NCBI RefSeq assembly: GCF_022370755.2
Contig: NZ_CP092364.2
Span: forward strand, 4,712,001 to 4,776,000
Length of the DNA stretch: 64,000 nucleotides
Direction of reading: 5' to 3'
From: Mycolicibacterium goodii
Lineage (GTDB): Bacteria; Actinomycetota; Actinomycetes; Mycobacteriales; Mycobacteriaceae
In this document: positions 42,382 through 57,396 of the stretch, one piece after another
Numbering within the stretch: position 1 is the stretch's first letter
How the letters are laid out: every line of letters starts with the position of its first letter
Notes under the pieces: generated by a model
Seen by the model: the letters and a program-made list of their open reading frames with translations, nothing else
Told to the model about the DNA's origin: nothing
Databases searched by the model: none
Program-made: the position numbers and the translations under genes

Positions 42382-43224
42382 CTACTTCCTGCTCACTTCA
42401 TGCTCACTCCGCGCCGAAACGGCGTTCCGTCGGGAAGGTGCGAGTGAATCCAGGCGGGCGGTGATCGCCGAGACGGCGTTGCGCAGGACTCCTCCGTCGG
42501 CGGCGGCGATGCGAACGGCCCAGCCGGCCTCGTTCGGCAGGTCGCTGATCCCGACGTACACGGTTCGGCCGGACATAGTCGTGAGGGATTCGAGTTCGGG
42601 CGTCGCCGCGGTGAGGGCGGTATCGAAACCGGTGCCGACCAGGTAGACGGTGCCGAACGCGGTGAACCGCTCCGTGGCGGGCGGATCGTCGAGCAGTTGG
42701 GTGTCCAGGGCCAGCAGTACGCCGTCGGGCGCGCGGACCGTCACCATGGACTCGAGGCTGCCGAACGCAGTGTCCCCGCCGGCGAGCTCGGGGTGCAGCA
42801 CGATGGCGTCGACGACGACGGCACACCCGCCTGGTTCGACACACACCTCGGTGCGCTGGCGATGGCGGGCGTGCGTGGTGAGGATGCGCGGTGACGGATC
42901 GAACCGCAGGTGGCTGCCGGCGTCGACGAACAACCGTGTTTCCTCGACCGATACATCACCGTCGGGAACACCGCTGACGAGCGTGGCGCCCTGCCCCATG
43001 ACCGTGGCCCAGGCCCCGTCGACCACGTCGATGCGCGCCCTGATCACGTCGCCGGGGATGACGGTGCCCGCGGCGTTCTGCAGCGTCAGCGCACCGCGGC
43101 CCGGGTGGTCGTCGAAGACGCGGCCGATCACGACGGGCCAGCGGTGACGGCGCCGGGTCAGTACGGTGTGGGCGCCGACGCGTGCGAACCGCAGATCGGC
43201 GGCGAGACGGTCGCCGAGGTTCAC
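42382..43224 (-). CDS. ureD: Urease accessory protein UreD (UreH)
   Basis: UreD is the scaffold that binds apo-urease and recruits UreF and UreG for nickel insertion. The 280-residue protein has the recognisable N-terminus, a middle with [20 protein letters not shown] and [20 protein letters not shown], and no catalytic motif, as expected. Its ATG overlaps the ureG stop by four bases (ATGA). It is the last gene of the 14-gene operon. Confidence 0.88.
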
Positions 43225-43847
43225 ATGAACAGCACTTCGCGCTCGAGAACGTCCATCAGCTCGTCGATGCCGAGGCCGTTGCGTGCACTGATCGCGACAA
43301 CCGTTCTGCCGCCGCGCACTTCGTCGGCTTCACGGCGCATGCGGTCGAGATCGACGCCGACGTGCGGGGCCAGGTCGACCTTGTTGATCACCAGCAGATC
43401 GCAGCGCAGCACGCCGGGCCCGCGTTTGCGTGGGATGTCGTCGCCGCCCGCCACGTCGATCACGAAGAGCCAGTAGTCCACCAGATCCCGCGAGAACGTC
43501 GACGCCAGGTTGTCGCCGCCGGATTCCAGCAGAATCATCTCGGTGTCGGGAAATTCGGCTTCGAGCGCATCGGCCGCGGCCATGTTGAGGGACGGGTCCT
43601 CACGGATCACCGTGTGGGGGCACCCGCCGGCCTCGACCGCCCGGACGCGCCGCGGGTCGATCAGCCCCGAGCGGCGGACCCGTTCGGCGTCCTCGGTGGT
43701 GACGAGGTCGTTGGTGATCACCGAGACGCAGCGGCCGCGCCGCGCGAAACCGGCGAGCAGCGCCTCGACCAGCGCGGTCTTGCCCGAGCCGACCGGGCCG
43801 CCGATGCCGATCCGCGCCGCCTTGAGGGCTTTGAAGGCTGTGGTCAT
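43221..43847 (-). CDS. ureG: Urease accessory GTPase UreG
   Basis: UreG is the GTPase that drives nickel insertion into urease. The 208-residue protein has the P-loop [20 protein letters not shown] and the metal-site motif [20 protein letters not shown] (the CPH motif). It also has [20 protein letters not shown] and [10 protein letters not shown], all UreG hallmarks. It overlaps ureC and ureD at both ends by four bases. Confidence 0.95.
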
Positions 43848-45550
43848 CGCAACAGGTACTTTCTTGAAAACGGCACGGTGGCAACCGGTTCTGCGGTGAG
43901 CAGCACACCGTCGGCGCGCACGTCGAAGGTTCGCGGGTCGACCTCGACATGCGGGAGGGCGTCGTTGCGCACCATGTCCTTCTTGCGCAGGCCGCGCACC
44001 GATCTGATCGGCAGAACGTTCTTGCGCAGGCCGAGGCGTTCGGGCACACCGGCGTCGACGGCGAGCGACGACATGAACACGAAACCGCCGTCTGCGGCCG
44101 CGTCACCCAGCGCCGCCCAGTTGGGACGCTGAATGATCGGTTCGGACGACGAGATCGACCCTGCCGCGTCGCCGAGCGCCGCCCACGCGATGTACCCGTT
44201 CTTCAGCACCACCTGGGGTTTGACGCCGAAGAACGCGGGTTTCCAGATCACCAGATCGGCGACCTTGCCGACCTCGACCGACCCGATGTGGTCATCGGCG
44301 CCGACCGAGATGGCCGGGTTGATGGTCAGTTTCGCGATGTAGCGTTTGACCCGCTCGTTGTCGGACGCAGTGGTCGTCTCCTCCGGCAGGCGCCCGATGC
44401 GCTGCTTCATCACCGCGGCCAGTTGCCAACAGCTGGCGATGTTCTCGGCGACGCGGCCCATCCCCTGGGTGTCGCTGCCGAAGATCGAGATGGCGCCCAT
44501 GTCGTGCAGGAAATCCTCGGCCACCATGGTCTGCGGGCGGATCCGCGCCTCGGCGAACGCGATGTCCTCGGGCGCTTCCCAGTTCATGAGATGTGCGGCC
44601 ATCGTCATGGGCACGCCCTCGTCGAGACCGCCCAGGGTGTACGGGTTGGTGGGGTTTGTGGTCCCCGGGATGACGTTGTCGTAGCTCACGCACCGGATCA
44701 GGTCGGGCGCGTGCCCACCGCCTGCGCCTTCGACGTGGTACAGGTGGATGGTCCGGTCACCGATCGTCAGCATCGTCGTCTCGGAGAACCCGAACTCGTT
44801 GATCGAGTCGGTGTGCAGGTGCACCGCGAAATCCGCGGAATCGGCTGCCTGCAACGTCTTGTCGATGATGTCGGGCGAGGCGCCGAAGTCCTCGTGGATC
44901 TTGACCGCACCCGCGCCGGCGGCCACCATCTCCAGTACCGCGGCCGGATCCGACGATCCACGCCCGAACGGCACGTAGTTCATCGGCGTGTAGTCACCGG
45001 CCTTGAGGAACATGCCGAGGTTACGCGGTCCGCCGGTGGCGACCTCGAACGACGGACCCAGCGAACCACCGATGAGCGTGGTGGTGCCGGTGGACAGCGC
45101 ATGTTCGGTCTGCTGCGGCGAGATCAGATGGGCGTGGGTCTCGATGGCACCCGCCGTGACGATCATGCCCTCGGCCGGGATGGGGGTGGTGGCGGTGCCC
45201 ACGATCATGTTCTCGGTGACGCCGGGCATGGTGTCCGGGTTGCCGGCCTTGCCGATACCGACGATGCGTCCGTCACGGATACCGATGTCGCATTTGATGA
45301 TCCCGGTGACCGCGTCGATGATGACGGCATTGACGATGACGTAGTCGAGCGCGCCGTCCGAGCGCTTCGACGATGGCCGGTACCCCTCGCCGTCACGCAC
45401 CGACTTCCCTGCCCCGCTGAGCAACTCGTAGCCCGGCACGGTGTGGTCGTGCTCGACCTCGACGAACAGGTCCGAATCGGCGAGCCGGATCCGGTCACCC
45501 TTGGTTGGCCCGAACATCCGGGCATAGGCGCGGCGGTCGATCGTCGTCAC
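43844..45550 (-). CDS. ureC: Urease alpha subunit, divergent at the flap
   Basis: The catalytic subunit of a nickel-dependent urease-type amidohydrolase, 568 residues from the GTG at 45550. Nickel ligands and the carbamylated lysine are present: H139/H141 ([11 protein letters not shown]), K217 and H219 (AVKIHEDFG), H246, H272 ([13 protein letters not shown]) and D360 ([11 protein letters not shown]). Several of these fall on the same numbers as in Klebsiella urease. In the mobile flap, residue 319 is Ala instead of Cys, H320 is kept, and 321 is Leu instead of His. Nearby pocket segments ([18 protein letters not shown] for ICPQ) also differ. The substrate may be urea or a related compound. Confidence 0.9.
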
Positions 45551-45551
45551 G

Positions 45552-46199
45552 TCACGCTCCCTTCTGCTCGGTGAGCGCATCGAGCGGGCCGTTCACCAGG
45601 CCGGAAAAACCTTGCACGATCCGCGCACCGCCCATCGGGACGAGTTGGACCTCGACCGGGATGCCGGGTTCGAACCTGACACCCCCACCGGAGGCGATGT
45701 CGAGTTTGTATCCCCAGGCCGCGCGGCGGTCGAACTCCAACGCCGAATTTGTCTCGTAGAAGTGGGATTGGCTGCGTACCTGGATGTCCCGATCGCCCCG
45801 GTTCACGACGGTGAGGGTGACACGCTCGGCGCCGGGGAACAGCTCGACGGGTTCGTCGCCGACGATGATCTCTCCGGGCCGGATGTCGTTCTCCGCGGGC
45901 GTGATCGGGTCGATCAACGTGACGAGCTTGGTGCCGTCGGGAAACGGCGCGTCGACCATCACCATGCGCACCATGTCGGGTACACCGGGCTCGCAGTCCT
46001 CGGCCTGCAGGAGGTTCGCGCCGTGATCGACGACCTCGTCGTAGGCCAGGTTCTTGCGTGCGGCCAGCATCACCTCGTCGGTGAGCAGCGCCACGGCCTC
46101 CGGGTGGCTCAGCGGCACCCCTTCGCGCAGGTTACGCCGCGCCAACTCGGCCGCGGTGTAGACCGTGAGGCGTTCGAGTTCGGTGGGTGTCAGGTTCAC
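45552..46199 (-). CDS. ureAB: Fused urease gamma and beta subunits
   Basis: A 215-residue fusion of UreA (gamma, about residues 1-100, NLTPTELERLTVYTAAELAR, REGVPLSHPEAVALLTDEVM) and UreB (beta, about 105-215, PGEIIVGDEPVELFPGAERV and SQSHFYETNSALEFDRRAAW). M. tuberculosis encodes these as separate genes; fusion is seen in Helicobacter and some actinobacteria. The start is the GTG at 46199 with GGAGAT five bases before. It ends one base before ureC. Confidence 0.92.
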   Translation of the reverse strand: MNLTPTELERLTVYTAAELARRNLREGVPLSHPEAVALLTDEVMLAARKNLAYDEVVDHGANLLQAEDCEPGVPDMVRMVMVDAPFPDGTKLVTLIDPITPAENDIRPGEIIVGDEPVELFPGAERVTLTVVNRGDRDIQVRSQSHFYETNSALEFDRRAAWGYKLDIASGGGVRFEPGIPVEVQLVPMGGARIVQGFSGLVNGPLDALTEQKGA

Positions 46200-46209
46200 G
46201 GAATCTCCT

Positions 46210-46875
46210 TCAACTGGCGAACAGTCGCGCACCGTCGCGGCGGCGTTGCGCGGCGATGTCGGCGTAAGCGGTGAATGTGGCGGGCACGGTGGGCGGTTCG
46301 CGGTTCAGCACGTTCAGCATGGGCGCGGTGAGGTCACCGAGAATGCGTTGCGCGCCGAGGTGCCCACAGATCCCGAGCCGCAGGGCTGCGCCGGTGATGC
46401 CCGATACCACCTGCCACGCCGCGACGGCCTCGGCGGTCGGCAACGTCAGGCCGGCGGCCCGGAAGCTGATCGCCTGCGCCACCGGCAGGTGGCCCGGGGC
46501 GTCGCCGGCGAGCACCCGCATCCGGTACCACGTGAGGTTGTCGACTCCTTCCACGATCGCGGCGAACGTCGACAGCGTCGCGGCGCCGGCGCGTCGGGAC
46601 GCCTCCCGCAGCACCGACATCGTCGCGACCGCCTCCGCAAGCGCGTCGACGTCGACCGGGTCGTCGACGGCCCACGCCATGCGCAGCAGCACGCGGTCGC
46701 CGCGGTGCCACCGGCAGGTCAACTGCTCGGCGGCGAACGCGGCGGCATCCCGCTCGTCGCGCACCAGCCCGTCACGGCACGCACCCTCCAGACCTGATGA
46801 GAACGCGAACCCTCCCGAGGGAAATGCGCTGTCCCCGAACCGGATCCCGGCGAGGAGTTGTCCCGGATCGATCAT
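46210..46875 (-). CDS. ureF: Urease accessory protein UreF
   Basis: UreF is the activator that connects UreD with UreG during urease maturation. The 221-residue, largely helical protein has the characteristic GIRFGDSAFPSGGFAFSSGL near the N-terminus and a C-terminal half typical of UreF. Its ATG overlaps the ureE stop by four bases, and ureAB starts 10 bases after its stop. Placement between ureE and ureAB differs from the ureABCFGD order of M. tuberculosis. Confidence 0.92.
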   Translation of the reverse strand: MIDPGQLLAGIRFGDSAFPSGGFAFSSGLEGACRDGLVRDERDAAAFAAEQLTCRWHRGDRVLLRMAWAVDDPVDVDALAEAVATMSVLREASRRAGAATLSTFAAIVEGVDNLTWYRMRVLAGDAPGHLPVAQAISFRAAGLTLPTAEAVAAWQVVSGITGAALRLGICGHLGAQRILGDLTAPMLNVLNREPPTVPATFTAYADIAAQRRRDGARLFAS

Positions 46876-47330
46876 GTGAGCTCGACGCGCCCGCTCGACA
46901 GCAGGTCGGCGATGCGTGCGGTGTAGTCGTCCTGCGGGGCTTGCAGCCGCACGACCATGGTGTCGCCGTGCTGATCGACCTTCCAGTGCAGGTGGCCGGC
47001 CACGAAGCCGAGTCGCAGTGCCGCGGCTGTGTCGACGGCCCGCAGGGTCAACGTCTGCGGTGCGCCGGCGCGCACCACGACCGCGCGGTCGTCGTCGAGA
47101 AGCAGCACCGCGCCGTCGGCGAGCGTCGCGTCGCGCGGCAGCACGATCGCATACGCGGTGCCGACGTCCGTTGACACGCGTAACCGCTTGCGGTCCAGAT
47201 CGTGCGCGTCGAGGTGCACGTACTCGACCGCGCCGCGGTGCTGCAGCTCGTGCAACCGGCCTGCGATGGCCGCGTCGGTGGCCCAGCCGACGATGCCGTC
47301 GAGGATCCGCAGGCCGGTGCCGAGCGCCAT
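46872..47330 (-). CDS. ureE: Urease accessory nickel chaperone UreE
   Basis: UreE delivers nickel to the urease maturation complex. The 152-residue protein has the UreE two-domain pattern (HDLDRKRLRVSTDVGTAYAI, LLLDDDRAVVVRAG) and a histidine-containing motif at GFVAGHLHWKV where the conserved metal-binding His lies. There is no histidine-rich C-terminal tail. It begins two bases after the amidase stop. The call rests on overall pattern and context. Confidence 0.85.
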   Translation of the reverse strand: MALGTGLRILDGIVGWATDAAIAGRLHELQHRGAVEYVHLDAHDLDRKRLRVSTDVGTAYAIVLPRDATLADGAVLLLDDDRAVVVRAGAPQTLTLRAVDTAAALRLGFVAGHLHWKVDQHGDTMVVRLQAPQDDYTARIADLLSSGRVELT

Positions 47331-47332
47331 GC

Positions 47333-48739
47333 TCAGCCCACCTTCGCCAGGACCGGTGCGATCCTGCCCACCGCGTCGGTGTTCTGCTCCAGCGCGTAGC
47401 CGAACGTCAGGATCTCGGGTTCGGCGAACGGCTTCCCGATGATCTGCACACCCAGCGGCAGGCCGTCGGAGGTGAACGCCGCGGGCACCGACAGCGACGG
47501 CAGGCCCGTGACGTTGGCCGGCGCCGACAGCCGCACGTAGGCGGCGGTCGCGGCCTCCACGGTGCCGTCATCCCACCGGACGAACGGGTCGGAGCGCAGG
47601 GTCGCCGGCGCCACGACGGTCGGGGCCAGCAGTACGTCGATGCCCACGAACATCTCTTTCCACGCGGCCTGGATCAGGGTGCGCCGCCGCAGGGCGTTGA
47701 CGTAGTCGGTGGCGGGTTGCACGGCACCCACCTCGAGCAGTGTCCGCACCTCGTCGGTGTACTGCTCGGGCGAATTGCGCAGGTAGTCCTGGTGGTAGGC
47801 GGTGGCTTCCGGCATCATGATCGCCCACTCGGTCGGCACGATGTGCTCGGCCAGGGGGATCTCGACCTCGACGAGTTCGGCACCGAGTTCGGAGAACTTG
47901 GCGGCGGCCACCCGCGCGGCCTCGGCGGCCTCGGGTGCTACCTGGTCGGTGAAGTAGTTGACCGGGATGCCGATCTTCTTGCCCGCCACGCCGGCGTCGA
48001 TGCCCGAAACCATGTCCGGCACCGGCACATCGGCCGTTCCCGGATCGCGACGGTCGTAGCCCGACATGGCCGCCATCACCAGGGCCGAGTCGGTCACGTT
48101 GCGGCTGAGCGGTCCGACGTGGTCGAGTGACCAGGACAGCGATGCGACGCCCACCCGCGACGCGCGGCCGTACGTCGGCTTGAGGCCGACGGTCCCGCAC
48201 AGCGCGGCGGGGATCCGGATCGAACCGCCGGTGTCGCTGCCGAGCGCGACGTGCACGACGCCGGCAGCAACCGCCGCACCGGAGCCACCGCTCGATCCGC
48301 CGGGGGTACGGTCGGGTGCCCACGGGTTGCCGGTGGTGGGCGTGGTTGCACCGTAGGCGAACTCGTGTGTGTGGGTCTTGCCGATGAGGATCATGCCTGC
48401 GTCGTACAGCTTGGCCACCGAGGCCGAATCGGCGTCGGGGATGTAGTCGGCCCGTTGCGCCGAGCTCGACGTGGTCTTGATGCCCGCGGTGTCGTAGAGA
48501 TCCTTGACGCCCAGCGGGATACCGTGCAGTGGACCGCGGTACTTGCCGTCGGCGATCTCCTGTTCGGCGATCTTGGCCTGCTCAAGGGCGACCTCGGGGG
48601 TGACCGTCGCGAAGGCGGTCAGCACCGGTTCGACCTCTTCCAATCGAGCCAGGGACGATTCGGCGACCTCGACCGGTGACACCTCCCTGGTGCGGATCTT
48701 CTCGGCGATGTCGATGAGCGGAAGTTCGTAGAGTTCCAT
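47333..48739 (-). CDS. Amidase signature family hydrolase (second amidase of operon)
   Basis: A 468-residue amidase. The Ser-cisSer-Lys triad is visible: the Lys in PLGVKDLYDTAGIKT, the cis-Ser in GGSSGGSGAAVAAG and the nucleophile in LGSDTGGSIRIPAALCGTVG. It resembles the AtzE/GatA branch. It follows the small AtzG-like gene by 48 bases and precedes ureE by two, so it is in the operon. It may release urea, carbamate or ammonia from an imported amide for the urease downstream. The substrate is not known. Confidence 0.9.
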   Translation of the reverse strand: MELYELPLIDIAEKIRTREVSPVEVAESSLARLEEVEPVLTAFATVTPEVALEQAKIAEQEIADGKYRGPLHGIPLGVKDLYDTAGIKTTSSSAQRADYIPDADSASVAKLYDAGMILIGKTHTHEFAYGATTPTTGNPWAPDRTPGGSSGGSGAAVAAGVVHVALGSDTGGSIRIPAALCGTVGLKPTYGRASRVGVASLSWSLDHVGPLSRNVTDSALVMAAMSGYDRRDPGTADVPVPDMVSGIDAGVAGKKIGIPVNYFTDQVAPEAAEAARVAAAKFSELGAELVEVEIPLAEHIVPTEWAIMMPEATAYHQDYLRNSPEQYTDEVRTLLEVGAVQPATDYVNALRRRTLIQAAWKEMFVGIDVLLAPTVVAPATLRSDPFVRWDDGTVEAATAAYVRLSAPANVTGLPSLSVPAAFTSDGLPLGVQIIGKPFAEPEILTFGYALEQNTDAVGRIAPVLAKVG

Positions 48740-48787
48740 AGCTGGTCCTTCCCAAGTCTTTTCAGGTCAAACGGGGTCCGGGCGATG

Positions 48788-48985
48788 TCAGTCCCAGTGC
48801 GCCTTGAAACCCACTGCAGGCACGGTCTCCCCCAACCCGGGTGTCGAGACGTTGCGGATCAAAGCCAGCGTGTCGGCGTAGGTGGTGTAGTTCTCCGTCA
48901 CTCGCTCGGCAGGCACGGGCAGCCCGGCATACTCGAACGCCGCGGCGATCTGGCCCTGCGACGGCAGGAATTCATTGTCGGACAT
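48788..48985 (-). CDS. AtzG-like small protein (DUF4089 type), amidase partner
   Basis: A 65-residue protein without signal or membrane segment, beginning MSDNEFLPSQGQIAAAFEYA. Size and the opening helix resemble AtzG, the GatC-like subunit that stabilises the AtzE amidase in cyanuric acid degradation. AGGAG precedes the ATG at 48985 (GTG 48988 is alternative). It sits between two amidase genes, 22 bases after one and 48 before the other, which supports a role as partner of one or both. Confidence 0.7.
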   Translation of the reverse strand: MSDNEFLPSQGQIAAAFEYAGLPVPAERVTENYTTYADTLALIRNVSTPGLGETVPAVGFKAHWD

Positions 48986-49007
48986 CACATCTCCTGGTGG
49001 TCGGTGG

Positions 49008-50408
49008 TCAAAGAGTGGGTGTGCGGTTCACGAAACCGGCAATCCCCTCGAACGCGCGGCCCGCTGCGAGCACCGTCGCGTCCGCCCCCGGCCGGCCCAT
49101 GAACTGTAGGCCGATGGGCAGTCCGTCACTGCCGAATCCGGCGGGTACGGTCAGCGCAGGCATACCGGTCACGTTGGCCGGGACGGTCAGTGCGTTGATC
49201 CCGGCGAGCACCGGAACGGTGCGGCCGCCGAGTTCGACGTGTGTGGACCCGTACGGTGGTGCGGTCATGGCGATCGTGGGCGAGATCAACAGATCCGGGC
49301 CGGAGTCGAACATCGCGTTCATCCCGGCGATCACGGCGCACCGCGCGCGGCGGGCCTCCAGGTACTCCACCCCGGTGTAGGACGCGCCGACGCGCAACGC
49401 GTCCTGGACCTCCGCGCCGAACCACTCCGGCGCCATACCGGTTTGCGCGGCATGCCAGGCCGCGGCCTCGACACCGCACACCACGTCGACAATCCGGGGG
49501 CACAGGTCGACGTCGGTGAACTGCACCGAGGTGACGGTGGCACCGGCGCGTTCGAGGGTGTGGATCGCGTCCGTGAAGGCCGCGGCGACGTCGGGGGCGA
49601 GCCGGTCGCAGAAGTACGGTTCGGCCACTCCTACGGTGAGACCGGTGAATGCCCTGCCGAATTCGGCGCGGAAGTCCGGGATCGGGGCGGCCGAGCTGTA
49701 CGGGTCGGCCGGGTCGTGCCCGGCGATCACCTCCAGCAGGGCGACCGTGTCGTCGACCGTGCGACCCAGCGGTCCGGTGTGGTCCAGCGTCGAACTCAGG
49801 GCGCTGACGCCACGGCGGCTCACCAGTCCGAACGTCGGCTTGTGGCCCGTGACACCGCACAGGGCGGCCGGGATGCGGATCGAGCCGCCGGTGTCGGTAC
49901 CCAGACCGGCCGCCGTGACACCCGCGGCGATCGCCGCGCCGGTGCCGCCGCTGGAACCTCCCGGAATGCGGTCGAGTGACCACGGGTTGCGGGTTGGCGG
50001 GGTCGTGACGCCGTAGGCGTATTCGTGGGTGGTCGCCTTGCCGAGGATGATCGCCCCGGCCGCGCGTAGCCGACGCACGGCCTCGGCGTCACGCGGCGCC
50101 GGATGCTCTGGCGCACCGAGGGATCCGTTGCCGGTGCGGTAACCGGCCACGTCGTAGATGTCCTTGACGACAACCGGGATGCCCCACAGTGGACCGGACT
50201 GCAGCGAGCTCTCCTGCGCCACCGCGAGCGCCTCTTCGGCGAAGACCGCTGCGAACGCCTGGATCTCGTCTTCGACCTGCGCGATCCGCGCCAGGGCACG
50301 ACGCACCAGCCCGACAGGGGTGATCTCGCCGCCTTCGAGTTGCGCGCGCAGCTGCGGGATGGTCTCGATGGCGGGTTCTACCGCTGATTCGGTGACTGCC
50401 TCGGTCAT
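49008..50408 (-). CDS. Amidase signature family hydrolase (first amidase of operon)
   Basis: A 466-residue amidase with the complete signature: Lys in PVVVKDIYDVAGYRTG, cis-Ser in GGSSGGTGAAIAAG and nucleophile Ser in LGTDTGGSIRIPAALCGVTG. It shares its domain plan with the second amidase but differs through most of its length, so the two may act on successive or different amide bonds. Its ATG overlaps the ATPase stop (ATGA), tying uptake and hydrolysis. Context suggests it acts on the compound imported by the ABC system. Confidence 0.9.
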   Translation of the reverse strand: MTEAVTESAVEPAIETIPQLRAQLEGGEITPVGLVRRALARIAQVEDEIQAFAAVFAEEALAVAQESSLQSGPLWGIPVVVKDIYDVAGYRTGNGSLGAPEHPAPRDAEAVRRLRAAGAIILGKATTHEYAYGVTTPPTRNPWSLDRIPGGSSGGTGAAIAAGVTAAGLGTDTGGSIRIPAALCGVTGHKPTFGLVSRRGVSALSSTLDHTGPLGRTVDDTVALLEVIAGHDPADPYSSAAPIPDFRAEFGRAFTGLTVGVAEPYFCDRLAPDVAAAFTDAIHTLERAGATVTSVQFTDVDLCPRIVDVVCGVEAAAWHAAQTGMAPEWFGAEVQDALRVGASYTGVEYLEARRARCAVIAGMNAMFDSGPDLLISPTIAMTAPPYGSTHVELGGRTVPVLAGINALTVPANVTGMPALTVPAGFGSDGLPIGLQFMGRPGADATVLAAGRAFEGIAGFVNRTPTL

Positions 50409-51223
50409 ATTGCGGCCTCCAGCTCGGGTTCCAGCACGGCATCGACGAGTTTGCGGGTGATCTCGGTGCTGGGTTCGGTGAGCAGCCGGTCCACCGGGCC
50501 GGCCTCGACGAGCTTGCCGTGGTCGAGCACCCCGGCGTGCTCGCACATGTGCTCGACGAGGGCGAGGTTGTGTGTGATCAGCAGCATCGTGAGTTTCCGT
50601 TCGAGCTGAAGGTCCTTGAGCAGGTTGAGGATCTGCGCCTGCACCGACACGTCGAGCGCGGCCGTCGGCTCGTCGAGCACGATGAAGTCCGGATCGGTGA
50701 TCAGTGCGCGGGCGATGCCGAGACGTTGCCGCTGGCCCCCGGAGAACTCGTGGATGTAGCGGTCGTAGTGCGAGGACAGCATGCCGACGCGGTCGAGCAG
50801 TTCGAGGGTCTTTTCGCGGGCCTCGTCGGGTGTTGCGAGACGGAACAGCTTGAGCGGGTAGGCGATCTGGGCTCCGACGCTGCGGCGCGGGTTGAAGGCC
50901 GATCCAGAGTCCTGGAACACGATCTGGATGTGGCGCCGGTAGCGGCGCATCGCGAGGTCCGAGAGCCCGACGAGTTCGTTGCCCTCGAATGTGATCGATC
51001 CGGACGTGGGGGCCTCCAGGCCAAGCACCATGCGTCCCGTGGTGGTCTTTCCCGAGCCCGATTCGCCGATGAGCCCGAAGGTCTCGCCGCGCTGAATGTC
51101 GAAGCACACGCTGTCGACCGCGGTGAACTCGCTGCGCTTGCCGTCCTCCCCGCGGACCGTGAACACCTTGGTGAGATCGGTGACCGAGATGAGCGGTTCT
51201 GGATGTGCGGATTCAGGCGACAT
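50405..51223 (-). CDS. Peptide-type ABC transporter ATPase (OppF/DppF-like)
   Basis: A 272-residue ABC ATPase. Walker A is [20 protein letters not shown], the signature is [20 protein letters not shown] and Walker B is [16 protein letters not shown]. The C-terminal oligopeptide/dipeptide transporter extension is shortened. The ATG at 51223 overlaps the end of the preceding ATPase gene by 11 bases. It energises the importer encoded by the next upstream genes. Confidence 0.92.
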
Positions 51224-52091
51224 CGGTGACCTCCTTGGTGGTGTCGCCGTGGAACTCGAACAACCGCCGGTCCGCCCGCGGTATCCCACGGGTCATGGGG
51301 TCGAGGTGCAGGCGGGGCACGGCCCGCATGAGTCCCTGGGTGTACGGGTGCTGCGGGTTGTTGAGCACCTGATCGGCCGTTCCCGATTCGAGGACGTCGC
51401 CGCGTCGCATGACCGTGACATCGGTGCACACGTGGGCGACGACGCCGAAATCATGCGTGACCAACAGGATCGACGTGCCGAGCTCTTTGTTGATCTCCAG
51501 CAGCAGATCGAGGATTTGCTTCTGCACCGTCGCGTCGAGTGCGGTGGTCGGTTCGTCGGCGAGCAACAGTTCGGGCCGGCAGGACAGCGCGATCGCGATC
51601 ACGACGCGCTGCCGTTGGCCGCCCGACAACTCGTGGGGATATGCCTTCATGCGGCGCTTCGGGTCCGGCAGTGCCACGAGTTCGAGGGCTTCGAGCGCCT
51701 TGGCACGTGCGGTCGGCCGGTCGACACCCTGGTGCAGCCGTATCACCTCCATGAGCTGAGACCCGATCGGGAACGACGGGTCGAGCGCCGACAGCGCGTT
51801 CTGCGACACCATCCCGATATGCGAGCCACGGATGGCGCGCATCTCCTTGTCGGACTTGTCGAGAAGGTTCTCACCGCGGAACAGGATCTCGCCGCCGGCG
51901 ATTCTGGCCCGGCCGGCCAGCAGGCGCAGCACGGCCAGTGAGGTGACGGACTTGCCGGAGCCGGATTCTCCCACCAGACCGAGGATTCCGCCTTCGCGGA
52001 CGCAGATGTCGGCGTCCTTGACCGCGTGGACCACACCGTTGTCGGTGTGGAAGTCCACGGACAGGTTCTTGACCTCCAGGGCGTGCGTCAT
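51213..52091 (-). CDS. Peptide-type ABC transporter ATPase (OppD/DppD-like)
   Basis: A 292-residue ABC ATPase with Walker A GLVGESGSGKSVTSLAVLRL, signature ELSGGQRQRVVIAIALSCRP and Walker B LLLADEPTTALDATVQ. The OppD-type C-terminal segment HPYTQGLMRAVPRLH is present; in this family that region can bind an iron-sulfur cluster, but I see no clear cysteines. Its ATG shares one base with the permease stop. It works as a heterodimer with the OppF-like ATPase. Confidence 0.92.
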   Translation of the reverse strand: MTHALEVKNLSVDFHTDNGVVHAVKDADICVREGGILGLVGESGSGKSVTSLAVLRLLAGRARIAGGEILFRGENLLDKSDKEMRAIRGSHIGMVSQNALSALDPSFPIGSQLMEVIRLHQGVDRPTARAKALEALELVALPDPKRRMKAYPHELSGGQRQRVVIAIALSCRPELLLADEPTTALDATVQKQILDLLLEINKELGTSILLVTHDFGVVAHVCTDVTVMRRGDVLESGTADQVLNNPQHPYTQGLMRAVPRLHLDPMTRGIPRADRRLFEFHGDTTKEVTDVA

Positions 52092-53026
52092 CAGTTCGTC
52101 TGCTTCCGGGGATCGAGGGCATCGCGGATGCCGTCGCCGACGAGGTTGAACGCCAGCGAGACGACGAGGATGAGAAGGCCGGGAATGGTTGCCACGTGGT
52201 AGATGCCTTCGAGCAGCACATTCTTGCCGTCGGCGGTCATGATCCCCCAGTCCGGTGTGGGTGGGATGACACCGACGCCGAGGAAGCTCAATCCTGACGC
52301 GACGACGATCATCAGGCCGCACAACGTGGTGGAGTACACCAGCAGTTGTACGACGACGTTGGGCATGAGTTCGCGGAACATCAGCAGTAGCGGGTTCGCC
52401 CCGTACGCGCGGGCGGCCTCGATGTAGTCCTTGTTCGCCTCGGACACCGTGGCGGTGTAGGCCACGCGGGCCATGTAGGGAATGAGCGTGATGCCGATCG
52501 CGAGCATCACGTTGCCGAGCCCGGCCCCGAGCACCGCCGACAGCGCAATGGCCAGCAGCACGAGCGGAAAGGCGAACAGCACGTCGAGGATGCGCATCAA
52601 CACCTCACCGGCGCGGCTGCGCCGGTATCCGGCGAACAGACCGATCATCAGTGCCAGGGGGAACACCACCAACACCGGGACCACCGCGGTCATGAGTGAG
52701 TTGCGACCGCCGTAGAGCAGGCGCGTCCAGATGTCGCGGCCCTGTCCGTCGAGCCCCAGCAGGTGGCCCTCGGTGCCGATACCGGCGAGGCGGTTCACCG
52801 GGTCACCGGCGGTGGGGCTGTACGGCGTCAGCAGCGGCGCGAACACCGCCGCAAGCGTCACCACGATCAGCACGGCCAGCGACACCACCGCCATCTTGTC
52901 GCGGCTGAAAGCGCGGATCGCCAGGCGCCACTGCGGCTTCGGGGCATCGGTCTCGACCGGGACGGGTCCGCCGGCCGACGATCGGCGAACCCGCGGGAAC
53001 GTGCGCCCTGCGACCAGTGTGCTCAT
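52091..53026 (-). CDS. Peptide-type ABC transporter permease (DppC-like)
   Basis: A 311-residue inner membrane permease with an N-terminal cytoplasmic region of about 40 residues and six membrane segments. The permease loop carries the EAA motif as DYIEAARAYGANPLLLMFRE, which contacts the ATPases. The segment LGLDGQGRDIWTRLLYGGRN is typical of DppC. It overlaps the DppB-like gene by four bases. Confidence 0.92.
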   Translation of the reverse strand: MSTLVAGRTFPRVRRSSAGGPVPVETDAPKPQWRLAIRAFSRDKMAVVSLAVLIVVTLAAVFAPLLTPYSPTAGDPVNRLAGIGTEGHLLGLDGQGRDIWTRLLYGGRNSLMTAVVPVLVVFPLALMIGLFAGYRRSRAGEVLMRILDVLFAFPLVLLAIALSAVLGAGLGNVMLAIGITLIPYMARVAYTATVSEANKDYIEAARAYGANPLLLMFRELMPNVVVQLLVYSTTLCGLMIVVASGLSFLGVGVIPPTPDWGIMTADGKNVLLEGIYHVATIPGLLILVVSLAFNLVGDGIRDALDPRKQTN

Positions 53027-53982
53027 GCTCCGACCTTCCTTCTCGTACGCGGATCCAGCAGTCCGACCGCACCGTCGGCAAGGAGGTTGATGATCACGAA
53101 CGCCAGCGCGATGAACAGCACACCGGCCTGGACCACCGGGATGTCACGCTGGGTGATCGACGTGTACAACTGCTGCCCGAGCCCGGGCCAGCCGAAGACC
53201 ACCTCGACGAACACCACACCGCCGAGCAGGTACCCGACCTGGAGGCCGATGATGTTGACGATGGGCGGCAGGGCGTTTCGCAGCGCGTGACGCCACAACA
53301 CCGAGTTCGTCGAGAGCCCCGAGGCGCGCAGTGTGCGGATGTAGTCCTGCTGAAGGATGTCGATCATCACGCTGCGCGTCATCCGCGCGATCACCGCGAG
53401 CGGCACGAGTGCCGCGGCGATCGCGGGAAGCACCAGATGTGCCAACAGGTCTGTGAGCCCGCCCGGGAAACGCGGGTTGTACATGCCGGAGGTGGGCAGC
53501 CAACCGAGGGTGACGGCGAACGCGCCGATCAAGAGCAGTCCGAACCAGTACACCGGGACGCTCGCGCCGGCCAGCGACACGATCATCGAGACGCGGTCGA
53601 AGATGCTGTACTGCTTGTGCGCCGCGATGACGCCGAGGGGAACGGCTACCACGATGCACAGCAGCAACGCCGCGCCCGTGAGGATTATCGTGTTGGCGAA
53701 CCTCGGCAGCATGATGTCGGTGACCGGGGCGTTGACGGTCAGGGATCGGCCCAGATCGCCGCGCACCAGACCACCGAGGTAGTCGAAGAACTGGATGGGC
53801 AGTGCGCGGTCCAGGCCGAGTTCGCTGCGCAGTGCGGCCACCGCCTCGGCCGTCGCACCCGAGCCGAGGATCGTGACAGCCGGATCGCCAGGGACCAACT
53901 GCAGGAGCAGGAAGACGATCAGGCTCACCCCGAACAACACGAGAAGAGTTGACAATAAACGGTTTCGGATGGTGGCAGTCAC
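53023..53982 (-). CDS. Peptide-type ABC transporter permease (DppB-like)
   Basis: A 319-residue permease with six membrane segments. The N-terminal LLVLFGVSLIVFLLLQLVPG and the EAA loop QQDYIRTLRASGLSTNSVLW are typical of DppB. The start is the GTG at 53982, whose first bases overlap the stop of the binding-protein gene (GTGA), and its end overlaps the DppC-like gene. It pairs with the DppC-like protein. Confidence 0.92.
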   Translation of the reverse strand: MTATIRNRLLSTLLVLFGVSLIVFLLLQLVPGDPAVTILGSGATAEAVAALRSELGLDRALPIQFFDYLGGLVRGDLGRSLTVNAPVTDIMLPRFANTIILTGAALLLCIVVAVPLGVIAAHKQYSIFDRVSMIVSLAGASVPVYWFGLLLIGAFAVTLGWLPTSGMYNPRFPGGLTDLLAHLVLPAIAAALVPLAVIARMTRSVMIDILQQDYIRTLRASGLSTNSVLWRHALRNALPPIVNIIGLQVGYLLGGVVFVEVVFGWPGLGQQLYTSITQRDIPVVQAGVLFIALAFVIINLLADGAVGLLDPRTRRKVGA

Positions 53983-55595
53983 TGGTTGAGCCTCACTCCC
54001 GTCAAGTCGTACCACTCCTCGCTCGCCGATACGAAGCCCGAGACGTACGGCGCCAACATGTACGGCGCCTTGTCGTTGACGATGGGGACCAGCGCTGCGT
54101 CGTCGCTGACGATGTTGTTGGCGCGACGCCACCACTGTTCGGCCTCCTGCGGGTCGAGGGCGGTGATCGCGTTGTTCATCGCCTTGTCCAGTGCCGGATT
54201 GGAGTAGTAACCGACGTTGGGACCGTTGGGCGCCTGCAACTCAGAGGAGGTCACGATGTACAGCCAGTACGGGCTCGTCATCCCCCAGGACATCTGGGCC
54301 ATGCCGACACCGTCCTGCATGCCGCGCGCCCACACACCCAGATACGAGATCCACTCCTGCGTCTGAATGTTCATCTTGATGCCGATCTCGGCGAGGTTCT
54401 GCTGGATGAACTCGGCCATCTGCGCAGGCATGATCTGCCCGGACCCGTCGGTCGAGGTGATCAGCGTGGTCTCGAAGCCGTCGGCCAACCCCACCGAGGC
54501 CAGCAGTTGGCGGGCCTTGTCGAGATTGCGTTCGTAGATGTCCTTGCGCTCGACGTAACCGCCGGCCGACAGGGCCTGCACGCCCCACGCCGGCGTCACC
54601 GAGCCCCGCAGCATGTCTCTCGCCATGCCCTCGCGGTCGACCGCCAGATTGATCGCCTGGCGCACCTCGGGAATCGAGGTGTAGCGATCCTTCATGTTGA
54701 ACGACAGGTACCACGTGTGTGGCGGCGTGCCTTCCGAGAGTTGATAGCCCTCGGCGACCAGGTTGTCGATGCTGTCCGGGTTGGGCACCGCGATCATGTC
54801 GACGTCGCCGGAGCGCAGCGCGGCGGTGCGGGCCGACGGGTCGGGCAGTGGGCGGAACACCACGCCGTCGATGTACGGCACCTTGCCCCAGTAGTCGTCG
54901 TTGCGCACCAGATCGATGCGTTCGCCGCGGATGCGTTCGGAGAACTTGAACGGCCCGGTGCCCACGGGATGGTCGGCCACGTCGGCGCCGTAGGTCTGCA
55001 GCGCGGTGGGGCTCATGATTGCCGTCGACCCGTTGCCGCCCTGCGCGAGCATGCGAAGGAACTCCGAGAACGGCTGTCGCAGACGCAGTCTCAGGGTGTG
55101 GTCATCGACCGTCTGCACCGAGTCGAGGAACTTCCAGACGAAGCTGGTCTGCCCCGCGGCGCGCGCGTTGTACATCGGCGACGACTTGTCCCACATGCGC
55201 CGGATGTTGTACTCCACGGCCTGGGCATCCAGCGGTGTGCCGTCGTGGAACTTCACGCCGCGGCGGATGTGGAACGTGTACTCGAGCCCGTCGTCGCTGA
55301 TATCCCACGACTCGGCGAGACCGGGACGCAGCGGAGGCACCGTCGCGTCCGCGGACGGGATCGACAGGTCCTCGTCGACAAGCGGTTCGAAGATCTGGCG
55401 GTTGATCCGCCAGCTCACCCAGCCGCCGGCGACCTGCGGGTCGAGGATGTCGGCCTCGGACTCGATCGCGATGACCAAGACATTGCCGGTCTGCACCGGC
55501 CCGCGCGAACAGCCGGCCAGTGCGGCGACTGTGACGATGACCGTCGCCGTCACGGCCAGCAGACGGTGTAGCGGTCGGATCACCGGCCACCGCAT
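53979..55595 (-). CDS. Substrate-binding lipoprotein of peptide-type ABC importer (SBP family 5)
   Basis: A 538-residue extracytoplasmic solute-binding protein of the DppA/OppA (family 5) class. It is lipidated at the Cys in VAALAGCSRG. The domain has the family pattern YTFHIRRGVKFHDGTPLDAQ and KFSERIRGERIDLVRNDDYW. Members bind oligopeptides, dipeptides, nickel chelates, opines or small amides, so the ligand here is open. The ATG at 55595 is the best fit; an upstream start at 55661 would precede the signal with a polar stretch. It is the first gene of the 14-gene operon. Confidence 0.9.
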   Translation of the reverse strand: MRWPVIRPLHRLLAVTATVIVTVAALAGCSRGPVQTGNVLVIAIESEADILDPQVAGGWVSWRINRQIFEPLVDEDLSIPSADATVPPLRPGLAESWDISDDGLEYTFHIRRGVKFHDGTPLDAQAVEYNIRRMWDKSSPMYNARAAGQTSFVWKFLDSVQTVDDHTLRLRLRQPFSEFLRMLAQGGNGSTAIMSPTALQTYGADVADHPVGTGPFKFSERIRGERIDLVRNDDYWGKVPYIDGVVFRPLPDPSARTAALRSGDVDMIAVPNPDSIDNLVAEGYQLSEGTPPHTWYLSFNMKDRYTSIPEVRQAINLAVDREGMARDMLRGSVTPAWGVQALSAGGYVERKDIYERNLDKARQLLASVGLADGFETTLITSTDGSGQIMPAQMAEFIQQNLAEIGIKMNIQTQEWISYLGVWARGMQDGVGMAQMSWGMTSPYWLYIVTSSELQAPNGPNVGYYSNPALDKAMNNAITALDPQEAEQWWRRANNIVSDDAALVPIVNDKAPYMLAPYVSGFVSASEEWYDLTGVRLNQ

Positions 55596-55785
55596 GGATA
55601 CTCGCAGAACTTCATCGTGGGCCCTCCGGATCACTGGAGAAGGTCGTCCGTCCGCCATCACGCCGCGGCGAGCGATGACTTCGACGAATCAGTGGTTTGA
55701 AGGTATGGGCCCGCGGGAAGAGAAGGAATACGTCAACCTACGTAATTCATTGTGCATCAATAATTTTCATGTCCGCAGCACGAAG

Positions 55786-56561: not shown

Positions 56562-56634
56562 CTCGCCCCCTTTCCCGGTGATGTGCGTGGGAGGCAGTGA
56601 CAGACAGTTGACTACACAAGCGCGTCAGCCAGGT

Positions 56635-57396
56635 TCAGCTTCTGTTTCGACGCCGTAAATCACGACCGATATGCAGTGAGTTGCCCCACACTCGCGCCGC
56701 TCGCCGCTTAGGAGGGACGAACTCTGCCCACACGACGGTGCTCCGGTGCTTGCCCGAGGGCCGGCTGTACACCACCAGCAGGCCGGGATCGTCGCGTATC
56801 ACGACCGCGTTGGGGTGGATTTCCAACAGACCGGCACCACCGCGGGTACCGGTCATGCGTGCGGCCGTACGCGCCGGGGTCTCCAGCCAGTTTCCTGCGA
56901 CGATCTGCGATCCGCTGTCGACGACCTCCAATCCGTCCCACTTCACGTCGGGTACGGGCAGATCCGGGGGTTGCCGCATCGTGACGTTCACGAACAACAA
57001 CGAACCCCATTGTGCGAGCGGTAGTTCGACCGTGCGCCGGCCGACGAATTCGGCACGTGCGGTGCCCGTCGGGTCCGTCCGGTGATCGAGCACTCCGCCG
57101 TCCTCACTGAACGCGCAGGCCCGATGCGGGCACCTCACGTTGCGGGTGCTGCCGCAGTGCACCGGGACCGAGAGACATCCGCCGAACGGCCGTGCGTTCA
57201 AGGCCGCCACCAGGCCGTCATCCGTGCGTCGCACATGGGCGGCGTGGTGACCGATGGTCGCCGGGAGCACCGCGCCCACCTCCGTGAGTTGCTCGACCAG
57301 GCCGACGCACACCCAGATACCGGTCCAGTCGGTGACGTCCGCTGCCGGGTGACGGCCGGACGACACTGCGGTGAGCACCAGGTCCACGGCCGTCAT
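56635..57396 (-). CDS. Degenerate Rieske oxygenase-like protein
   Basis: A 253-residue protein that follows the layout of Rieske non-haem oxygenase alpha subunits. In the Rieske region the second motif reads RCPHRACAFSEDGG in place of the usual CPYHxWxF.xDG. The first C-x-H motif appears as ALNARPFGGCL, so three of four cluster ligands are missing. WGSLLFVNV and GNWLETPARTAAR echo the catalytic domain, but the iron-site pattern is not recognisable. It is probably not an active oxygenase; a binding or scaffolding role, or decay, is possible. It lies between dmfA2 and the LuxR gene. Confidence 0.55.
   Translation of the reverse strand: MTAVDLVLTAVSSGRHPAADVTDWTGIWVCVGLVEQLTEVGAVLPATIGHHAAHVRRTDDGLVAALNARPFGGCLSVPVHCGSTRNVRCPHRACAFSEDGGVLDHRTDPTGTARAEFVGRRTVELPLAQWGSLLFVNVTMRQPPDLPVPDVKWDGLEVVDSGSQIVAGNWLETPARTAARMTGTRGGAGLLEIHPNAVVIRDDPGLLVVYSRPSGKHRSTVVWAEFVPPKRRAARVWGNSLHIGRDLRRRNRS

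Follow-up and report, generated by a model that had tools for sequence, protein, structure and literature searches.

Organization of the locus

A 64,000-nucleotide stretch of the Mycolicibacterium goodii genome (contig NZ_CP092364.2, positions 4,712,001 to 4,776,000; hereafter the window) carries an operon of 14 minus-strand genes (55595-42382) that encodes an ATP-binding cassette (ABC) importer with its binding protein, two amidase-signature enzymes (ami1 and ami2), a small AtzG-like protein, and a urease together with UreE, UreF, UreG and UreD (Table 1). All 14 are uninterrupted open reading frames (ORFs) with no internal stops, and the junctions from the binding protein to ureD measure -4, -4, -1, -11, -4, +22, +48, +2, -4, +10, +1, -4 and -4 bp. 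The initial annotation of this DNA had described 14 minus-strand genes with overlaps or short gaps (here -11 to +48 bp), and its gene list is borne out; the luxR gene upstream, which is likewise conserved, had been missed. Where the binding-protein gene begins is uncertain: the ATG at 55595 leads into a lipoprotein signal (LAGC), but further in-frame starts reach back to a GTG at 55661.

Table 1. Features of the operon and its upstream region (window coordinates; aa, amino acids; HTH, helix-turn-helix).
Feature	Position	Strand	Remarks
GlnR-like triple half-site ACGGCGTCGAAACAGAAGCTGAAC	56633..56656	-	72-95 bp upstream of luxR; single copy in window
LuxR-type (GerE HTH) regulator, 244 aa	55827..56561	-	Pfam GerE 1.5e-19; counterpart of msmeg_1082 by gene order
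Conserved 20-mer TACGTAGGTTGACGTATTCC	55725..55744	-	Gap between luxR and binding-protein gene; single match in window
Binding lipoprotein, SBP_bac_5, 538 aa	53979..55595	-	
ABC permease B (DppB/GsiC type), 319 aa	53023..53982	-	Pfam BPD_transp_1; start set by GTGA overlap
ABC permease C, 311 aa	52091..53026	-	Pfam BPD_transp_1 and OppC_N
ABC ATPase D, 292 aa	51213..52091	-	Pfam ABC_tran and oligo_HPY
ABC ATPase F, 272 aa	50405..51223	-	Pfam ABC_tran
Amidase 1 (ami1), amidase signature PF01425, 466 aa	49008..50408	-	Pfam Amidase 1.5e-109; dispensable
AtzG-like/GatC-like small protein, 65 aa	48788..48985	-	C-terminal motif LGETxPAxxFxAxW
Amidase 2 (ami2), AtzE-like amidase-signature PF01425 enzyme, 468 aa	47333..48739	-	Pfam Amidase 1.7e-117
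UreE, 152 aa	46872..47330	-	NCBIfam UreE 185.6 bits, cut-off 162
UreF, 221 aa	46210..46875	-	Pfam UreF 6.4e-24
UreAB, fused gamma-beta subunits, 215 aa	45552..46199	-	NCBIfam NF009671 289.5 bits, cut-off 243
UreC, non-canonical clade (type III), 568 aa	43844..45550	-	TIGR01792 714.3 bits, cut-off 680; loop GPSFEVATG, Gly363
UreG GTPase, 208 aa	43221..43847	-	TIGR00101 231 bits, cut-off 204
UreD, 280 aa	42382..43224	-	Pfam UreD 9.5e-30

Conservation and rarity of the gene order

Named genomes were scanned with an alignment of ami2, which yielded 277 related stretches, and the best 80 were kept as loci. The full order (luxR, binding protein, two permeases, two ATPases, ami1, small protein, ami2, ureE-F-AB-C-G-D) was present in nine of the 80, belonging to M. 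wolinskyi, M. vaccae, M. canariasense, Mycobacterium sp. AT1, Mycobacterium sp. AZCC_0083, Mycolicibacterium sp. P1-18, two strains of Rhodococcoides kyotonense and Rhodococcus yunnanensis. Because these nine loci keep the order of the 14 genes across identities of 39-92%, it goes beyond chance. A search of other actinobacteria for the same order had been proposed in the initial annotation, and it found that order in several genera. Of the 11 named loci in which importer and urease share a direction, 10 have the LuxR gene upstream of the binding protein (50-84% identity); the exception, in which it was not found, is that of Kineococcus rubinsiae.

Departures from the full order were of several kinds. 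Saccharopolyspora soli has the complete order minus ami1. In K. rubinsiae importer and urease run in the same direction, the small protein and ami2 are divergent, and neither ami1 nor a luxR match is present. The importer and amidase genes of Dietzia are divergent from its urease, while one contig of a Mycobacterium metagenome-assembled genome (MAG; locus L024) holds the small protein, ami2 and the urease with no importer and no ami1. At the loci of Sediminivirga, Dactylosporangium, Amycolatopsis and a Micrococcaceae MAG the importer and amidases have no urease beside them, and whole-genome searches of Sediminivirga luteola and the Micrococcaceae MAG, whose completeness is not stated, detected none. 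The importer, at a binding-protein identity of at least 50%, was found in 17 of the 80 loci and together with a urease of the operon's kind (type III, see below) in 12, and 57 loci had neither binding protein nor urease gene. The remainder comprised L024, three loci (L035, L039 and L043) with a 45% UreC, four importer-amidase loci without urease, one locus (L036) with importer and ureG only, and two (L041 and L090) whose binding protein is less similar (35% and 24%). From these tallies the usual core is therefore importer, small protein and ami2, to which a large subset adds the urease. Of the single chain of import, amide cleavage and urease envisaged initially, the joint occurrence of the three parts in distant genera stands, but ami1 is absent in Saccharopolyspora and Kineococcus and one contig has only the small protein, ami2 and urease.

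The system is rare. An ami2 match at E 1e-100 occurred in six of 251 genomes evenly drawn from the family, with the window's genome counted. Among 394 genomes of the class, the binding protein (72-100%) was present in three and the type III UreC (79-100%) in the same three, against 167 with some UreC match at E 1e-100.

A divergent urease alpha subunit

The window's genome (a single 6.74-Mb contig) contains two urease alpha genes, the operon UreC and a canonical-type gene at C1:2197207, and UreC identities listed in the class search drop from 79% directly to 51%. Alignment separated the UreC sequences into three types, whose labels were coined in this analysis: type I (canonical), with the loop GPAEG(S/T)KATTVTPG, the flap LMVCHHLNP and the motif QAMGR; type II (intermediate and mixed), with a loop mostly three residues shorter and QGMGR; and type III, the operon's own, with a loop GPxF(E/D)V that is four residues shorter, QGMGR, and a flap that mostly keeps only the catalytic His of CHH. 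In a tree of 62 UreC sequences a 93% branch splits types I and II from type III together with long-branched Blastococcus sequences. A database UreC bearing the name M. smegmatis (P0004) shares 96% identity with the operon UreC, and named relatives among the UreC matches are called 'urease subunit alpha' or ureC. The EmbC of the window's genome is likewise very similar, though not identical, to that of 7bvh, the M. smegmatis protein, and both comparisons mark the host as closely related to M. smegmatis.

All 39 type III sequences compared keep the nickel ligands, the carbamylated Lys and the catalytic residues (SPU H137, H139, K220, H222, D224, H249, H275, H323, R339 and D363). Unlike canonical ureases, however, they have a shortened Ala170 loop (11 residues in 37 of 39 and eight in two, compared with 15 in 12 of 13 canonical sequences and 14 in one), Gly in place of Ala366 (39/39), and mostly Ala or Gly in place of Cys322 of the flap (34 sequences, with Cys in four and Val in one); Leu319 is Thr, Ala or Gly in all 39. 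Among the best 120 of 7,995 UreC database relatives, which extend to Rhizobium, Kaistia, Devosia and Mesorhizobium, the loop has 11 (114) or eight (6) residues and none shows the canonical 14-15, Gly occupies position 366 in all 118 that cover it, and the catalytic His is present in 119 of 119. PMC7433671 describes how urease binds urea through its two nitrogens: the one on the Ni2 side contacts the backbone carbonyls of Ala170 and Ala366, the distal one Gly280 and Ala366. With the loop shortened and Ala366 replaced by Gly, two of these three urea-holding residues are altered in type III. The initial annotation had taken the urease as ordinary; judged from the alignments, it falls in a clade of its own, in which the nickel and catalytic residues are kept and the urea amine-binding side is apparently rebuilt, a change that may alter the substrate.

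A canonical urease is also present in the hosts that were typed, namely the window's genome, G036, G616 and G620. One of these, K. rubinsiae (G616), has four urease alpha matches; two share no more than 42-43% identity with the operon UreC and have odd loops. No NicO-type nickel permease was found in genome G000, though it encodes two ureases.

Association of the type III urease with amidase genes

Loci anchored on UreC were used to limit the bias that an amidase anchor brings. Apart from the window, seven loci of type III could be used (L136, L011, L137, L138, L144, L168 and L171; one more, on a contig of 5.3 kb, was set aside), and amidase-signature genes were called by tblastn at E 1e-8 and 30% coverage. 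Such a gene lay within 7 kb in four of the seven, within 9 kb in five and within 12 kb in all seven, compared with none of 21 type I ureases (flanks of 7-10 kb) and one of 12 intermediate ureases (a 23% match). Type III differs from type I with Fisher p values of 0.0017 (7 kb) and 2e-4 (9 kb); a value of 8e-7 for the same contrast rests on unequal flanks. The type III clade is associated with amidase genes in both Actinobacteria and Alphaproteobacteria.

The alphaproteobacterial clusters vary in their partners. Two Rhizobium plasmids combine a UreC of 65% identity with an Opp-type importer whose binding protein is only about 32% identical. The Rhizobium tumorigenes cluster starts with a divergent amidase (45% to ami2) and a 66-aa neighbour, and has an acetamidase/formamidase and an asparaginase-domain protein before ureE. 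In Pleomorphomonas and in genome G981 an importer of branched-chain type stands beside the type III urease. In two alphaproteobacterial loci (L168 and L138) the type III urease is accompanied by an amidase, branched-chain-type ABC genes, a small ABM-type protein and two amide-type binding or AmiC-like proteins.

Amidases and the small protein

Both amidases match PF01425 far above its cut-off of 27 (367 and 394 bits), and the Lys-Ser-Ser motif of ami2 is invariant in six sequences, in which K79, S149, S150 and S173 are all kept. On the AtzE models TIGR02715 and NF006631, ami2 scores 329.7 (cut-off 425.75) and 338 (cut-off 461), and ami1 280 and 299, all below the cut-offs. Of 30 selected loci, 17 hold a member of the small-protein cluster (62-117 aa, LGETxPAxxFxAxW), always ahead of an ami2-like gene, and tblastn adds more; the 17 sequences share eight invariant columns. 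The small protein of the window has no Pfam or NCBIfam family match. Its profile matches GatC (2df4_C) weakly, at E 0.008, and the first three Foldseek rows were GatC chains, but with E of 2.7-4.9. The initial designation 'AtzG-like' thus draws on size, position and the weak GatC match and not on family membership; the protein probably plays an AtzG-like role for ami2. No match to AtzD/barbiturase (PF09663) was found in the genome, although control genomes gave none either. A possible further parallel of AtzG/AtzE type is the HpxWXYZ purine-ureide cluster.

According to PMC6219798, the 1-carboxybiuret amidohydrolase AtzE requires AtzG as its partner, and Proteobacteria commonly carry atzG-atzE-atzH clusters, some of which also encode ABC transporters. 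The operon resembles these clusters and the AtzDGEHF cyanuric acid operon (PMC6219798) in placing a small GatC-like protein directly before an AtzE-like amidase. It differs in that its 14 genes include no AtzH, AtzD or allophanate hydrolase and have a urease instead, in that it is found in Actinobacteria, and in that its small protein, unlike AtzG, has a C-terminal motif of its own and no Pfam family.

The importer

The importer is of the same ABC type as NikABCDE and DppABCDF and shares their binding-protein fold. In contrast to those systems it is encoded with amidases, and its binding protein falls below the curated cut-offs of both the NikA and the DppA model (186.5 bits on TIGR02294, cut-off 393, and 162 bits on NF043070, cut-off 1005). 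With the binding-protein profile, NikA (163 and 147 bits) ranks below GsiB and DppA (256 and 232 bits). Solved nickel-binding proteins (NikA, YntA and 'nickel ABC transporter' proteins) belong to the same family, so that the contrast drawn at first between a nickel transporter and a dipeptide-type importer is not clean, although the nickel reading itself is weakened because orthologous importer-amidase clusters sit in two genomes without a detected urease. The proposal that the importer supplies nickel or a nickel chelate to the urease, with the amidases as unrelated neighbours, is very improbable on these grounds, on the gap between 167 class genomes with a urease match and only three with the importer, and on the response of the M. 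smegmatis counterpart to nitrogen starvation, described next.

Probable regulation under nitrogen limitation

The pattern ACG-n5-GAAACAG-n5-GAAC (AC-n9-AC-n9-AC) occurs in seven of seven mycobacterial loci, window included, and starts 71-95 bp before the aligned luxR start; among four non-mycobacterial loci (L023, L025, L028 and L037), AC-n9-AC-n9-AC was found in L037 only. In the gap downstream of luxR, the core [AT]TGACG[GT]AT[AT][CT]C of the conserved 20-mer is present in seven of seven mycobacterial loci and TACGT in six of seven, which makes TACGTAGGTTGACGTATTCC a candidate site for the LuxR protein. By gene order and annotation, the luxR-importer-amidase part would correspond to msmeg_1082-1090 of M. 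smegmatis, and the operon urease to what we take to be msmeg_1091-1096.

In M. smegmatis a GlnR chromatin immunoprecipitation (ChIP) peak at MSMEG1082 goes with a 277-fold expression change (PMC3662644), and ACGGCGTCGAAACAGAAGCTGAAC fits both the published GlnR motif and this peak. With a GlnR-type site before luxR, the operon is a putative member of the GlnR regulon. Under nitrogen starvation msmeg_1082 and msmeg_1084-1090 were 4.6 to 52-fold higher in the wild type than in a glnR mutant (PMC4222082, Table 1), and that article reports that no GlnR binding was detected upstream of msmeg_1084 or 1090. A 7.7-fold increase of msmeg_1085 was interpreted as that of a dipeptide transporter in PMC4617892.

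Proposed pathway and alternative explanations

We read the operon as nitrogen-scavenging catabolism, in which an amide-bearing ureide would be imported, cleaved by amidases and relieved of its nitrogen by a modified urease, and we favour this reading with moderate confidence. The importer and amidase part, as scavenging of nitrogen from amide compounds, is well supported. Nitrogen limitation would make GlnR active, GlnR would switch on luxR and LuxR would activate the operon, a sequence partly shown for the M. smegmatis counterpart and extended here by analogy. The SBP_bac_5 importer may then take in a small compound with an amide and a ureido or urea-like group, whose amide bond would be cut by the pair of ami2 and the AtzG-like protein, in some species with ami1, much as AtzEG acts on 1-carboxybiuret. 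Finally, the urea-like product, which is most likely an N-substituted urea or ureide but could be free urea, would yield ammonia and CO2 through the action of the operon urease. The route from import through amide cleavage to ammonia had been proposed from the start; co-occurrence in distant genera and the nitrogen-starvation regulon of M. smegmatis argue for it, but not for a single fixed unit. The initial statement that no described pathway has this exact set agrees with full-text literature searches, which turned up no description of the importer-amidase-urease combination.

More tentatively, and as a possibility that we hold with some doubt, the type III urease may have as its primary substrate not urea but an N-substituted urea or ureide, on which it would act as a nickel enzyme that follows an importer of its own and an AtzEG-type amidase in an undescribed pathway switched on at nitrogen shortage. 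If so, a clade that has the metal chemistry but no urea-contacting loop would mean that some annotated ureases act otherwise.

A number of observations weigh against these proposals. Type II ureases beside Urt-type urea transporters also have Gly366 and a loop three residues shorter, and because they share part of the pocket changes, such changes alone are no sign of a new substrate. The four-residue loop deletion recurs in three intermediate UreC genes, and the one whose neighbours were examined has no amidase near it. The amidase association weakens with matched flanks (4/7 at 7 kb) and its seven loci are not independent: two Rhizobium plasmids are near-identical and the sequences are related, which makes the Fisher p values optimistic, and on both plasmids the amidase lies 11 kb away, at the far end of the cluster. 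The relation of the small protein to AtzG is weak. The lack of a detected urease in the two importer-amidase genomes, S. luteola and the Micrococcaceae MAG, implies that the urease step is not always needed. As for a single transcript, the tags 1083 and 1091-1096 are absent from the GlnR-dependent list of PMC4222082 (3-fold cut-off), whereas msmeg_3626 of the other urease cluster is on it. The joint expression expected initially therefore holds for the importer and amidase counterparts, which are GlnR-dependent, and not for the operon urease genes as published.

Among the alternatives, we regard as somewhat unlikely that free urea is what the amidases produce, from an N-acylurea type compound (e.g. 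oxalurate- or ureidomalonate-like), with an ordinary urease kept for co-regulation and neutral drift of its pocket. This would suit the fully intact nickel ligands and catalytic residues, a UreC that passes the TIGR01792 cut-off, the intermediate clades in which partly similar changes adjoin urea transporters, and the contig with atzG, ami2 and urease only. However, a canonical urease is already present in the same genome, and both the urea-contacting loop and Ala366 are changed in every type III sequence compared. In addition, M. smegmatis is reported not to grow on urea despite two urease clusters and a urea transporter (PMC4222082), a puzzle on which a type III enzyme with another substrate would bear. 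The system is open to laboratory test in M. smegmatis mc2 155.

It is clearly unlikely that the importer and amidases form a scavenging unit for peptides or amino-acid amides, as was assumed for msmeg_1085 in PMC4617892, with the urease merely an adjacent, separate unit. The absence of the operon urease genes from the published GlnR-dependent list, the importer-amidase clusters without urease and the divergent arrangement in Dietzia point that way. On the other side stand a junction of only 2 bp between ami2 and ureE, a gene order conserved across genera, the amidase association of the urease clade in two phyla, and L024, where atzG, ami2 and urease occur without the importer.

Relation to known ureases and neighbouring genes

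Canonical urease is a highly specific enzyme. The operon resembles canonical urease operons, including that of the second urease of the same genome, in encoding UreABC with UreE, F, G and D and in having the full nickel and catalytic set, and differs from them in its order EFABCGD, a UreC identity of about 50% and the associated amidase genes. Intermediate plasmid ureases (Methylobacterium, Aminobacter, Ancylobacter and Acinetobacter) are like it in their fused UreAB, Gly366 and partly shortened loop, and the order EFABCGD is shared by four of five annotated loci (the first gene being 'hypothetical' in Acinetobacter), one Ancylobacter plasmid having ABCGDEF. Unlike the operon, they mostly keep the CHH flap and adjoin branched-chain-type urea/amide transporters. 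The plasmid loci of Acinetobacter, Ancylobacter and Aminobacter (L140-L143) carry urea or branched-chain-type transporter genes and ANTAR regulators with their intermediate ureases; two Ancylobacter plasmids also have a nitrilase or aliphatic amidase gene, and one of these ureases is on plasmid pMET1 of Aminobacter sp. NyZ550.

A glycosyltransferase gene follows 35 bp past ureD on the same strand and was seen in no other amidase-anchored locus compared. Just upstream of luxR lie a 253-aa protein without family assignment (56635-57396, minus strand) and a large protein whose C-terminal domain resembles N,N-dimethylformamidase beta (PF20254; 57476-60106, minus strand). Both recur upstream in L020, L022 and L026, and neither is in the available flanks of L017, L018 and L021. 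The three loci with a 45% UreC (L035, L039 and L043; Blastococcus and a contig titled Bacillus sp. AZ43) have an FDV loop, NGMGR and a urease divergent to an ami1-ami2 pair, preceded in L035 and L039 by an importer ATPase; a copper amine oxidase-type gene is near, and this set may represent a second lineage of urease-amidase association.

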